Shown: one piece after another, positions 8,607-12,266 of the stretch
How positions within the stretch are numbered: position 1 is the first letter of the stretch
How the letters are laid out: the number at the start of each line of letters is the position of its first letter
Source of the DNA: Pelagihabitans pacificus
GTDB taxonomy: Bacteria; Bacteroidota; Bacteroidia; Flavobacteriales; Flavobacteriaceae
Length of the DNA stretch: 64,000 nucleotides
Direction: 5' to 3'
Assembly: GCF_009371985.2 (NCBI RefSeq)
Contig: NZ_VIKU02000001.1
Coordinates: 1,364,001 to 1,428,000 of the forward strand
Position numbers and translations under genes: made by a program
Notes under the pieces: generated by a model
What the model saw: the letters and a program-made list of their open reading frames with translations, nothing else
Told to the model about the DNA's origin: nothing
The model's database searches: none

Positions 8607-10505
8607 ATGAGTGATGCGATTAAACATGAATGCGGCATTTCGGTCATCCGATTACTTAAACCTTTAGAGTATTACAAGGAGAAGTACGGAACGGCTTTTT
8701 ATGGGGTGAACAAGATGTACCTCATGATGGAAAAGCAGCACAACCGAGGACAGGACGGAGCGGGTTTTGCGAGCATTAAAATCGACATGAAACCAGGCGA
8801 ACGCTATATGAGTCGTGTACGCTCTGCCGCTCAACAGCCCATACAGGATATTTTCGCCCAAATCAACGACCGCATCAATACGGCTCTAAAAGAACATCCG
8901 GAATATGCCGATGATGTCGCCCTTCAAAAAAGTCACATTCCTTACATAGGAGAGCTGTTGTTGGGCCATGTTCGTTATGGCACCTTTGGTAAAAATAGCA
9001 TAGAGAACGTACACCCTTTCTTACGTCAGAACAATTGGATGCACCGAAATCTTATCGTTGCGGGCAACTTTAATATGACCAACGTACATGAGCTTTTCGA
9101 CAACCTCGTTCAGCTGGGGCAACATCCGAAGGAGATGGCCGACACGGTTACGGTGATGGAAAAAATAGGACATTTCCTGGACGATGAGGTTGCCAAGCTC
9201 TATAAACAGATCAAGAAAGAAGGGTATAATAAAATGGAAGCATCGCCACTGATCGCCAAACGGTTGAAAGTGCACAAGATTTTGAAGCGGGCAACCAAAA
9301 ACTTCGACGGTGGTTTTGCCATGGCAGGTTTGCTCGGTCATGGGGATGCCTTCGTGTTGCGTGATCAAGCAGGGATTCGGCCTGCCTACTATTATCAAGA
9401 TGAGGAGATTGTAGTAGTGGCTTCCGAACGGCCAGCTATCCAAACGGTTTTTAATGTACCCTACGAAGCCGTCCAAGAATTGGATCCCGGTCATGCATTT
9501 ATTATTAAGAAAAGTGGGGAAACCGCCATCAAAAAGGTCTTGGAACCCGTAGAACGAAAAGCTTGTTCTTTTGAGCGCATTTATTTTTCAAGGGGAAGCG
9601 ATAAGGAAATCTATCAGGAACGTAAAGAGTTGGGTAAGCTGATATTTCCAAAAATACTCTCGGCCATCAACGGCGATATCAAAAAAACGGTGTTCTCCTA
9701 TATTCCAAACACCGCTGAAACTTCTTTTTTCGGTATGGTCAAAGAGGCGCAGAATTATCTCAATAAAAAGAAGGAGGAACAAATATTGCAGCTTGGGGCC
9801 GGTATTACCAGCGAACAGCTTCACGAAATACTGGAGGTTCGACCACGCATCGAAAAAGTAGCCATTAAAGATGCAAAACTACGTACCTTTATCACGCAAG
9901 ATAGCAGCAGAAATGACCTGGTTGCCCATGTCTATGACATTTCCTATGGTTCGGTTGACAAAGGGGATAATCTGGTCATCATAGACGACAGTATCGTACG
10001 CGGCACCACTTTGAAGAACAGCATTCTAGGCATTCTTGACCGGTTATCGCCAAAAAAAATTATCGTAGTATCATCTGCCCCACAAATTCGGTATCCCGAT
10101 TGCTATGGAATCGACATGGCAAAATTAGAGGATTTTATCGCTTTTAGAGCCGCTTTAGAGTTGCATAGGGAACGAAATACGATGCAGACTATCGACGATA
10201 TCTATCAAAAATGTCTGGAGCAGGTGAACACCAAAGATCAACAGGTCATCAACTACGTGAAGGAATTCTACGCCCCGTTCACCGCAGATGAAATTTCGGC
10301 AAAAATAGGTGACTTACTCAGTCCTAAAGATATCAAGGCCGAGGTAGAGATTATTTACCAAACTATCGAAAACCTGCATCGGGCATGTCCGAAAAACCTA
10401 GGGGATTGGTACTTTACGGGCAACTACCCGACTCCAGGTGGAAATCGAGTTGTCAATCGGGCTTTTATCAATTTTTACGAAGGAAAAAACCAACGGGCCT
10501 ATTAG
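8607..10505 (+). CDS. PurF-like amidophosphoribosyltransferase (class II glutamine amidotransferase), long form
   Basis: The N-terminal half is a class II glutamine amidotransferase: the catalytic Cys9 in HECGISVI, QHNRGQDGAG, the arginine segment GHVRYGTFGKN, and AGNFNMTN in place of the usual GNLTN. The C-terminal half is a phosphoribosyltransferase fold with the PRPP loop VIIDDSIVRGTTLKNS near residue 450. At 632 residues it is well over 100 longer than E. coli PurF (505), with insertions between and after the domains. Removal of eight residues would be needed to expose Cys9. The function is probably the first step of purine synthesis (PRPP plus glutamine to phosphoribosylamine), but Bacteroidota often carry a second, shorter PurF, so this may be a paralogue with another role. 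Expressed from its own region after a terminator. Confidence 0.85.
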   Translation: MSDAIKHECGISVIRLLKPLEYYKEKYGTAFYGVNKMYLMMEKQHNRGQDGAGFASIKIDMKPGERYMSRVRSAAQQPIQDIFAQINDRINTALKEHPEYADDVALQKSHIPYIGELLLGHVRYGTFGKNSIENVHPFLRQNNWMHRNLIVAGNFNMTNVHELFDNLVQLGQHPKEMADTVTVMEKIGHFLDDEVAKLYKQIKKEGYNKMEASPLIAKRLKVHKILKRATKNFDGGFAMAGLLGHGDAFVLRDQAGIRPAYYYQDEEIVVVASERPAIQTVFNVPYEAVQELDPGHAFIIKKSGETAIKKVLEPVERKACSFERIYFSRGSDKEIYQERKELGKLIFPKILSAINGDIKKTVFSYIPNTAETSFFGMVKEAQNYLNKKKEEQILQLGAGITSEQLHEILEVRPRIEKVAIKDAKLRTFITQDSSRNDLVAHVYDISYGSVDKGDNLVIIDDSIVRGTTLKNSILGILDRLSPKKIIVVSSAPQIRYPDCYGIDMAKLEDFIAFRAALELHRERNTMQTIDDIYQKCLEQVNTKDQQVINYVKEFYAPFTADEISAKIGDLLSPKDIKAEVEIIYQTIENLHRACPKNLGDWYFTGNYPTPGGNRVVNRAFINFYEGKNQRAY

Positions 10506-10510
10506 GGATT

Positions 10511-10550
10511 TTATCGATGAAATACTCCATTTTATGCATTTCATCGATAA
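10511..10550 (+). terminator. Long hairpin after the PurF-like gene
   Basis: A perfect 13-base stem TTATCGATGAAAT (10511-10523) with ATTTCATCGATAA (10538-10550) and a 14-base loop begins 6 bases after the stop codon. Only an interrupted T run follows, so it may stabilise the 3' end as much as terminate. Confidence 0.6.
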
Positions 10551-10602
10551 TTATTTGTTTTCATCGTCTTTTTGGCTTCAAAGGTAAGTGGCCCGCCTAT
10601 TT

Positions 10603-10610
10603 TAGATTTG
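10603..10610 (+). promoter_or_regulatory. -7 box of small-RNA unit 1
   Basis: TAGATTTG, an exact TAnnTTTG match, ends immediately before the conserved core of unit 1. No convincing TTG lies about 20 bases upstream; the nearest is at 10572-10574. Confidence 0.5.
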
Positions 10611-10681
10611 CCATAGCATAAGTAGGTTAAGTTCATGGTAAGATTTGGGGCAAAAAAGGTGGAGACTTCTCCACCTTTTTT
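10611..10681 (+). ncRNA. Candidate small RNA, unit 1 of 4
   Basis: A 40-base core (10611-10650) starting CCATAGCATAAG and ending AGATTTGGGG is followed by an A run and a terminator hairpin: GGTGGAG (10658-10664) pairs with CTCCACC (10669-10675), then six T. Within the core CCAT and ATGG can pair, leaving AAGTAGGTTAAG exposed in the loop. The same core recurs at 10895, 11299 and 11504 on the same strand. Core, box and terminator together indicate an independent ~70-nt transcript. Family unknown to me; a match to a Bacteroidota RNA family such as Flavo-1 in Rfam has not been tested. Confidence 0.75.
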
Positions 10682-10881
10682 ATTTGGTCATGGTCAGTTT
10701 TGGTCAAGACATCCCGCCATGACATACCTACCAACCAGACCACGACAAGAGCGTTAGGGTTTTCTCCGGTCGAGAATGCCCGAATTTCCCATTTCTTCTT
10801 CCAAATAAATTTTCATAACTACATTTCAACCCATTTAAAGGAATTTCAACCATGATTTTTTTTCTCAAATCTGTTTTCCAA

Positions 10882-10889
10882 TACATTTG
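10882..10889 (+). promoter_or_regulatory. -7 box of small-RNA unit 2
   Basis: TACATTTG, an exact TAnnTTTG match, ends five bases before the conserved core of unit 2. The upstream sequence has nothing in common with that of unit 1 apart from this box. Confidence 0.5.
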
Positions 10890-10894
10890 GAGAA

Positions 10895-10965
10895 CCATAG
10901 CATAAGTAGGTTAAGTTCATGGTAAGATTTGGGGAAAAAAGGTGGAGCTTTGCTCCGCCTTTTTT
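10895..10965 (+). ncRNA. Candidate small RNA, unit 2 of 4
   Basis: The 40-base core at 10895-10934 is identical to units 1 and 3. After six A comes a terminator stem GGTGGAGC (10941-10948) with GCTCCGCC (10952-10959), then six T. Compared with unit 1, the stem position that was T-A is now a T-G wobble, and an extra C-G pair closes the loop, so the hairpin is preserved although bases changed. This is what one expects of a functional RNA end rather than a recent copy. Confidence 0.75.
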
Positions 10966-11285
10966 ATTGATCAGCCATTTTTATCGCCATTTCTGGTAAT
11001 CCGATTATCTACTTCTTCAATCAACATGCCAGAAGTCAACACATTTTTTGGGAAACTTGCATTGTTTATTTGGGTTCGTTCCATCGGAAATATAAATAAG
11101 GTTTATGATAGCGAAGTACCTCAAACCGTATAGTTTGGGAAAGCCGGCGAGTTACAACCAAGAGTTGATGGAAACATTCTGTATTCCTTTTCTTTCACTT
11201 GTATAGGACATTATGCCGTCTAAGGTATTTCAACGCCATAGTTGGGCGTTCGTCTAAAACCTTTTTCCTCTGGGGCATTTAGGTC

Positions 11286-11293
11286 TATTTTTG
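11286..11293 (+). promoter_or_regulatory. -7 box of small-RNA unit 3
   Basis: TATTTTTG, an exact TAnnTTTG match, ends five bases before the core, the same offset as in unit 2. Confidence 0.5.
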
Positions 11294-11298
11294 AGGAA

Positions 11299-11368
11299 CC
11301 ATAGCATAAGTAGGTTAAGTTCATGGTAAGATTTGGGGAAAAAGGTGGAGCTTTGCTCCGCCTTTTTT
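11299..11368 (+). ncRNA. Candidate small RNA, unit 3 of 4
   Basis: Core at 11299-11338 identical to units 1 and 2, then five A (one fewer than unit 2) and a stem GGTGGAGC (11344-11351) with GCTCCGCC (11355-11362) and six T. The single-base difference in the A run would shift any reading frame that starts at the ATG inside the core, which argues against a peptide and for an RNA product. Confidence 0.75.
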
Positions 11369-11495
11369 ATTGCCGGAACCCTAGCAATTAACAAGGTTAC
11401 CCTCACTTTTAACCAATTCTACTTACAATTTTTTTAACCAAAAACACTTAAAATTTCTTAAAATTTCTTTTTTATTTCCCACAATACCAGTAATT

Positions 11496-11503
11496 TAGTA
11501 TTG
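11496..11503 (+). promoter_or_regulatory. -7-like box of small-RNA unit 4
   Basis: TAGTATTG, one mismatch from TAnnTTTG, ends directly before the core as in unit 1. Confidence 0.4.
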
Positions 11504-11573
11504 CCATAGCATAAGTAGGTTAAGTTTATGGTAAGATTTGGGACGAAAAGGGTGGAGGCTTCTCCGCCCTTTT
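11504..11573 (+). ncRNA. Candidate small RNA, unit 4 of 4
   Basis: The most divergent copy. The core (11504-11542) differs by one C-to-T change (GTTCATGG to GTTTATGG) and ends GGGA instead of GGGG. The terminator stem is longer: GGGTGGAG (11550-11557) with CTCCGCCC (11562-11569), flanked by AAAA and TTTT. The CCAT/ATGG pairing inside the core is kept. Spacing between the four cores is 284, 404 and 205 bases, and the sequences between them are unrelated. Confidence 0.72.
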
Positions 11574-11596
11574 CTATTTTTTTGGTGGCGCCTACC

Positions 11597-11633
11597 AAAA
11601 AAAAGCCATTCTACCCTTTAAGGTAAAATGGCT
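11597..11633 (-). terminator. Terminator of sodA
   Basis: Read leftward, AGCCATTTTACC pairs with GGTAGAATGGCT (one G-T pair; 11604-11633) and is followed by seven or eight T (11597-11603). It lies 25 bases after the sodA stop. Confidence 0.9.
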
Positions 11634-11657
11634 CTAAATCAATAATATACAACTGTG

Positions 11658-12266
11658 TTATTTATTTGCCTCGTACAACTCGGCTACCTTATCCCAATGA
11701 ATGATATTGAAAAAAGCGTTCACGTAATCCGGTCTTCTGTTCTGGTAGTTCAGATAGTAAGCATGCTCCCAAACATCCAATCCTAAAATCGGGAAACCCC
11801 CGCATCCGGTATTGGGCATCAACGGATTGTCTTGATTCGGTGTTGAGCAAACCTCTACTTTTCCGCCTTTATGAACACACAACCATGCCCAGCCTGAGCC
11901 AAATCTAGAGCCTGCGGCCGAACTAAACTTCTCTTTAAATTCATCAAAAGAACCATAGGCATCGTTAATGGCATCTGCCAAAGCTCCCGAAGGTTGCCCT
12001 CCCCCGTTAGGCGACATGATTTCCCAGAAGAGCGAATGATTGTAGAATCCACCTCCGTTATTACGAACGGCGGCATTGCCCATGTCCAAGTTGGCGAGTA
12101 TATCCTCTATCGACTTGGAAGCGAGGCTGGTTCCCTCAATGGCACCATTTAGTTTGGTCGTATATCCATTGTGGTGTTTCGTATGATGGATTTCCATGGT
12201 ACGGGCATCGATATGTGGTTCCAATGCATCGTAGGCATAGGGTAAATTAGGTAGTTCAAAAGCCAT
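11658..12266 (-). CDS. sodA: Superoxide dismutase, Mn/Fe type
   Basis: Converts superoxide to oxygen and hydrogen peroxide. The 202-residue protein has all four metal ligands: His27 in [12 protein letters not shown], the histidine of [10 protein letters not shown], and aspartate and histidine in [18 protein letters not shown]. The second-shell glutamine lies in [10 protein letters not shown], the position used by manganese enzymes, so manganese or cambialistic use is more likely than strict iron. No signal peptide, hence cytoplasmic. Single gene with its own -7 box and terminator. Confidence 0.96.

Follow-up and report, generated by a model that had tools for sequence, protein, structure and literature searches.

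A purF–sodA-linked array of predicted multicopy small RNAs in the Flavobacteriaceae with candidate antisense sites at start codons

The interval between a purF-like and a sodA-like gene of Pelagihabitans pacificus holds four near-identical short sequences. Are these the genes of sibling small RNAs and, if so, on which messages might they act? The locus was studied in a stretch of 64,000 nucleotides (contig NZ_VIKU02000001.1), referred to below as the window, and in related genomes.

Anatomy of the array

An initial annotation, made from the letters alone, had described four same-strand units with a core identical in three copies and changed once in the fourth, each with a TAnnTTTG-like box in front and its own terminator behind. 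All four units were found on the + strand, and core, boxes and terminators could be read from the sequence as described. In each predicted sRNA unit of ~70 nt, a TAnnTTT(A/G) box precedes a near-invariant 40-nt core that carries a 5' hairpin, and a separate terminator follows. In the following list the units are defined by sequence and folding (for copy 4 also by a terminator scan) and have predicted transcript ends, while the boxes are defined by sequence and by a position that is conserved over the 242 copies among the matches listed (see below).

8607..10505, + strand, purF-like amidophosphoribosyltransferase gene, conserved upstream neighbour (TIGR01134, E 6.5e-35, below its curated cut-off)
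10598..10605, + strand, promoter-like box of copy 1, TATTTTAG
10610..10681, + strand, sRNA copy 1 (subtype A, purF-proximal)
10617-10631, 10642-10650 and 10652-10681, + strand, loop seed, tail seed and terminator of copy 1
10882..10889, + strand, promoter-like box of copy 2, TACATTTG
10894..10965, + strand, sRNA copy 2 (subtype B)
10901-10915 and 10926-10934, + strand, loop seed and tail seed of copy 2, then the terminator
11286..11293, + strand, promoter-like box of copy 3, TATTTTTG
11298..11368, + strand, sRNA copy 3 (subtype B)
11305-11319 and 11330-11338, + strand, loop seed and tail seed of copy 3, then the terminator
11491..11498, + strand, promoter-like box of copy 4, TAATTTAG
11503..11573, + strand, sRNA copy 4 (subtype C, sodA-proximal)
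11510-11524 and 11535-11542, + strand, loop seed and tail seed of copy 4, then the terminator (scanned stem 11545-11574)
11658..12266, - strand, superoxide dismutase gene (sodA-like), conserved convergent neighbour

The core stretch CCATAGCATAAGTAGGTTAAGTTCATGGTAAGATTTGGG is invariant in copies 1-3, which also have CCATAGCATAAGTAGGTTAAGTTCATGGTAAGATTTGGGG in common. The core of copy 4 carries a single C-to-T change (TTCATGG to TTTATGG) and ends in GGGACG. In every unit of the window the TAnnTTT(G/A) box ends 12 nt 5' of the C in CATAAG. The four terminators differ in sequence and stay paired: a T-A pair is replaced by T-G, a C-G pair is added in copies 2 and 3, and the G-C stem is longer in copy 4. 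The units fold at -21.8 to -24.0 kcal/mol (z -2.9 to -3.6). A helix of CCAT and ATGG that exposes a loop had been proposed. The predicted fold places a further, inner UAA/UUA stem around GUAGG. Because this inner stem is broken in Flavobacterium copies, the large loop closed by CCAT/ATGG is the safer description. Two stretches of the sRNA are conserved, CAUAAGUAGGUUA in the loop and GAUUUGGGG in the tail; only the loop had been named as a seed before. Within the 4.56-Mb genome of P. pacificus exactly four copies of the core were found with at most three mismatches, all of them in the array and none within a protein gene elsewhere.

Some features of the spacers were noted besides. The spacer 5' of copy 4 (window 11407-11456) holds two copies of a 25-base tandem repeat, TTTTAACCAAAAACACTTAAAATTT. 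Mid-array copies (window 11240-11293 and others) have in common a box like CTAAAACCTTTTT about 30 nt 5' of the TAnnTTTG box, and sodA-proximal copies have CACAATACCAGTAaTTTAG upstream in common. Both boxes may be regulator sites.

Conservation and synteny in the Flavobacteriaceae

A 17-base loop probe matched at least 118 loci in public bacterial genomes, nearly all of them from Flavobacteriaceae, and from the loci listed together with the locus of P. pacificus 242 copies were extracted. The neighbouring genes were tested by tblastn, leaving out two loci that match the probe only (L024 and L051). Among the matches listed, purF and/or sodA adjoins the copies in 111 of 116 loci, the arrays comprise 1-6 copies and the median spacing is 206 bases. 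The proximity to sodA and a purine gene that had been remarked on is therefore a conserved synteny; no functional link to either gene was found. In arrays of at least three copies, the first unit is of type A in 25 of 38 and the last of type C in 34 of 38 (again among the matches listed), and the preservation of this order implies that the array is old.

As the probe fixes the loop, a core-only covariance model with the stated hairpin was used as an independent test; an earlier model (R1) was set aside in its favour. It detected the core in 120 of 149 sampled Flavobacteriaceae genomes (107 of the 125 good ones). Outside the family no core was found with the model under strict filters in a 198-genome sample of the phylum. 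In Flavobacterium, found in this way without the bias of the loop probe, the cores are divergent (CATTAGTAGG, CATGAGTAGG, indels in the linker), with AGTAGGTTA and GATTTGGGG nearly constant. Four loci (L007, L016, L043 and L071) contain the sRNA with neither purF nor sodA in the stretch examined; in a few genera the gene may have been relocated. Two matches lie outside the family. One is a core at the very end of a possibly mis-binned contig that is labelled Persicobacter (L072:6227); the other, in Clostridium oryzae (L024:2102), is a chance match to the 17-mer only.

Among the matches listed, a 5' hairpin is predicted in 241 of the 242 copies and a stable terminator-like hairpin likewise stands on 241 of 242. 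The latter is built from 99 different 5' stem arms, which implies that pairing has been maintained under sequence change. Covariation, proposed as a check, is slight in the 5' helix, this helix being nearly invariant and offering too little variation to decide. Folding of the full alignment with RNAalifold gave an implausible structure owing to misaligned terminators. Large parts of the family are divided by a 1-nt indel after ATGGTA, which argues against a reading frame in the core. The exact copy number, the 241 of 242 hairpins and the 120 of 149 genomes confirm that the array is more than a chance observation.

Antisense sites at start codons and candidate targets

The reverse complement of the loop, CTTAACCTACTTATG, has a start codon as its 3' end. 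Near-matches to it in the P. pacificus genome (sRNA genes excluded) numbered 17, against 38 for the reversed control. With a total below the control there is no enrichment and only their position is telling: several lie exactly at the starts of signal-peptide proteins. An exact 14-base form, TAACCTACTTATGA, designed to exclude the sRNA genes, yielded 25 matches in 149 family genomes compared with 5 for the reversed pattern. When one seed position was changed (TAACCTACT[ACG]ATGA), the three other letters summed to 4 matches in the same genomes, against 25 for the antisense letter. All 21 genomes bearing a TAACCTACTTATGA site carry the sRNA, compared with 120 of 149 overall (hypergeometric p 0.007, with genome size as a confounder).

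Directly upstream of several TAACCTACTTATGA matches stands CCCAAA. The antisense of the tail is CCCAAATC, and the tail had played no part in that search. This defines a two-part site, CCCAAA-N1..13-AACCUACUUAUG, that is antisense to both loop and tail and in which AUG is the start codon. The combined pattern CCCAAAN{1,13}AACCTACTTATG was found 23 times in 299 family genomes versus once for the reversed control. One of the 23 is an sRNA gene with a shorter linker; in each of the remaining 22 the ATG begins a credible frame. The strict two-part site is rare, being present in 22 of the 299 genomes, in one of them only as the sRNA gene. A relaxed pattern lacking the ATG, CCCAAN{1,14}ACCTACTT, was searched for in 13 genomes (nine of the genus of the window and four from other families of the order), where it is overall about as frequent as its control. 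Of the 48 distinct matches examined, 13 lie 0-5 nt before a start codon, where ~0.13 would be expected by a rough estimate from gene density. These 13 belong to orthologues of four genes that keep the half-sites and change the linker, and are not independent of one another. A profile of the target sites was dropped because the variable gap was misaligned. The loop had been put forward as a possible target-pairing site, and the sites at start codons supply the matching class of targets.

The 22 genes with two-part sites include lipoprotein-like candidates (L201, L204, L210; L208, L213; L198; L214), secreted proteins (L200, L205, L209, L212, L216, L217, L220), membrane proteins (CreD-like and other, L218, L199), a small protein (L206) and a 29-aa peptide (L202, L203, L211, L215, L219). 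Domain searches identified a CAP domain in L208 and the CreD-like L218; the other classes were assigned by eye from N-termini. In P. pacificus itself the candidates include a 545-aa lipoprotein (C16:295549), for which six species keep CCCAA, TCTAATT and AACCTACTT with a changed linker, a 525-aa secreted protein (C17:191346) with a site seen in five species, a PorP/SprF protein near C1:1567280 (PF11751, E 6e-70), a T9SS cargo protein of the CHU_C type and a G8/CEMIP protein that has a type A sorting tail. The candidate targets do not form one metabolic pathway.

Computed net binding was stronger for all six own-genome candidates than for any of the 53 start regions of the window, a comparison that gives scale only and is partly circular because the candidates had been chosen by complementarity. 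Compared with shuffled sRNAs the binding of the candidates has z -2.5 to -7.4. In joint folds of sRNA and target the 5' hairpin opens and the terminator stays.

Several frames deserve separate mention. The 29-aa frame (the five above and L175) is conserved, starts on the antisense site, ends in ..V(M/L)Y(V/L)AKKVFL(I/L)M and sits in its own short transcript-like unit with the common terminator GCCCGTTCTTTGTGAGGTTAGAACGGGC; this unit has no Rfam match. A conserved 22-aa hydrophobic frame, MKNIKRI..LVSLVVMVSKIFF (L179, L184, L187, L197), starts on AACCTACTTATG. Two genes that are response-regulator-like by eye and a HisKA_2 sensor kinase (L180, L183, L343) have the antisense site at their start, so that regulators may themselves belong to the regulon.

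The loop of most Flavobacterium species reads ATTAGTAGG. A 286-aa orthologous gene with an apparent signal peptide reads CCTACTAATG in genome G497, in which the sRNA is CATTAGTAGG, and CCTACTTATG in G524, in which one sRNA is CATAAGTAGG. This is one compensatory sRNA/target pair. No site was found in 28 of 30 orthologues of this gene, in G532 the site of another gene, L236, mismatches that genome's sRNA by one base, and exact sites in Flavobacterium are at background. Either targets are quickly gained and lost in this genus or a weaker consensus is used.

Proposed function and comparison with known systems

Near-identical units, each with a promoter-like box and an intrinsic terminator, and a conserved seed complementary to several mRNAs at their start region are two features of a multicopy trans-acting base-pairing sRNA, and both were found. 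The pattern of multicopy regulatory RNAs that had been recognized is supported by the conservation, the fixed locus, the boxes and terminators and the antisense sites, which together point to sibling RNAs with a target-pairing loop. Most likely, judging from sequence comparison, the array specifies a family-wide multicopy trans-acting antisense sRNA that prevents ribosomes from initiating on the mRNAs of envelope and secreted proteins. Each unit would be transcribed independently as a ~70-nt RNA ended by its intrinsic terminator. In the cell the loop CAUAAGUAGGUUA(AG) and the tail GAUUUGGGG would pair with the mRNA site CCCAAAU(C) followed closely by AACCUACUUAUG, which would place the loop's CAU over the AUG start codon, exclude ribosomes and repress translation. 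The targets would be mostly lipoproteins, secreted and type IX secretion proteins, membrane proteins and small peptides, and the RNA may serve envelope homeostasis or the response to stress. The seeds are common to all siblings and the sequences upstream of them vary, so the most likely role of the multiple copies is to supply dosage and to let several inputs act on one regulon.

A wider reading, to which we lean slightly less than to its negation, makes the array the central post-transcriptional hub of the Flavobacteriaceae envelope. A two-seed RNA, encoded by 1-6 siblings fixed between purF and sodA, would then throttle translation across most genera. Its targets would be lipoproteins, type IX secretion cargo, PorP/SprF partners, signalling proteins and 22-29-aa peptides, and its seeds and sites would coevolve.

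The extreme conservation of loop and tail in several copies would also be expected of RNAs that mainly titrate an RNA-binding regulator in the manner of CsrB/RsmY, through the GUAGG loop or the GAUUUGGGG tail. Titration does not, however, predict that both stretches should find antisense partners at start codons, correctly ordered and on the correct strand, and the loop is without an AnGGA-type CsrA motif, which makes this quite unlikely. It is also unlikely that the pairing is real and the targets are activated or stabilised, for instance by opening of a leader structure. One own-genome candidate (L358) does have a hairpin between its half-sites, and in F. psychrophilum deletion of Rfp18, an unrelated or unidentified sRNA, lowered protease mRNAs (PMC9723704). 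In most targets, however, the duplex spans the start codon itself, which normally blocks initiation, and FopS, with the same geometry, represses (PMC11697453).

That the units are not RNA genes at all is most improbable. A sequence repeated between two genes, with an ATG inside the core, could suggest a repeat family, a short open frame or the leaders of adjacent genes. Yet the copies in P. pacificus occur at the array locus only, and the same position between purF and sodA across the family distinguishes them from a mobile repeat. Each copy has its box and terminator, the 1-nt indel breaks any frame, and the next gene, sodA, is convergent. The preferred reading remains that of antisense sRNAs acting at start codons.

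The array had been called apparently undescribed. At the gathering score no Rfam 15 family matches the window, and within 10500-11660 none, Flavo-1 included, is listed up to E 10. Relaxed matches were weak, below threshold and strongest over the terminators, some on the opposite strand. Neither the core sequence nor a flavobacterial multicopy sRNA is described in the literature searched, and an sRNA regulon conserved across Flavobacteriaceae is found neither there nor in Rfam 15. Enterobacteria offer a familiar parallel in OmrA/B, RybB and MicA, small sRNAs by which the mRNAs of several envelope proteins are repressed close to the start region; likened by description, these are Hfq-dependent and have other seeds than the array RNA.

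In F. psychrophilum, of the same family, 85 new RNAs (Rfp) were found in a transcriptome study, and one of them, Rfp18, has an effect on secreted proteases (PMC9723704). Rfp18 uses a third stem-loop for pairing, whereas the array RNA has two hairpins. One of the 85 may be the array RNA. In Listeria the multicopy LhrC siblings repress translation of a surface protein and are induced by envelope stress; by this published description they differ in phylum and in their CU-rich sites and have no known sequence relation to the array (PMC4132741).

FopS of Bacteroides would be the closest functional parallel: 14 copies (12-15 per genome) of ~65-70 nt block translation at SusC start regions (PMC11697453). 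Both are multicopy Bacteroidota sRNAs of ~65-70 nt with their own promoters (here promoter-like boxes) and terminators. FopS has a conserved 5' seed that is complementary to outer-membrane protein mRNAs around their starts and blocks initiation (PMC11697453), and a seed with this mode of action is predicted here as well. Unlike FopS, with its published structure (PMC11697453), the Flavobacteriaceae RNA has a predicted 5' hairpin and a second seed, its 1-6 copies are clustered at purF-sodA instead of numbering 12-15 per genome, and its candidate targets are lipoproteins and T9SS/secreted proteins rather than mainly SusC. Identity with FopS is not supported: the best score for RF04319 in the window is 19.8 bits (matches of 18-20 bits) against a gathering threshold of 56, and local alignment to the published consensus of its R1' seed was no better than 4-26% of shuffles.

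The Flavobacteriaceae are major polysaccharide degraders and some are fish pathogens. Now that the RNA has been described together with its two seeds, its named candidate targets and their predicted pairing sites, the regulation is directly testable. If the proposal holds, RNA control would be linked to type IX secretion and surface lipoproteins, and start-codon-blocking multicopy sRNAs would extend from Bacteroides, with FopS, to a second Bacteroidota family that uses different seeds.
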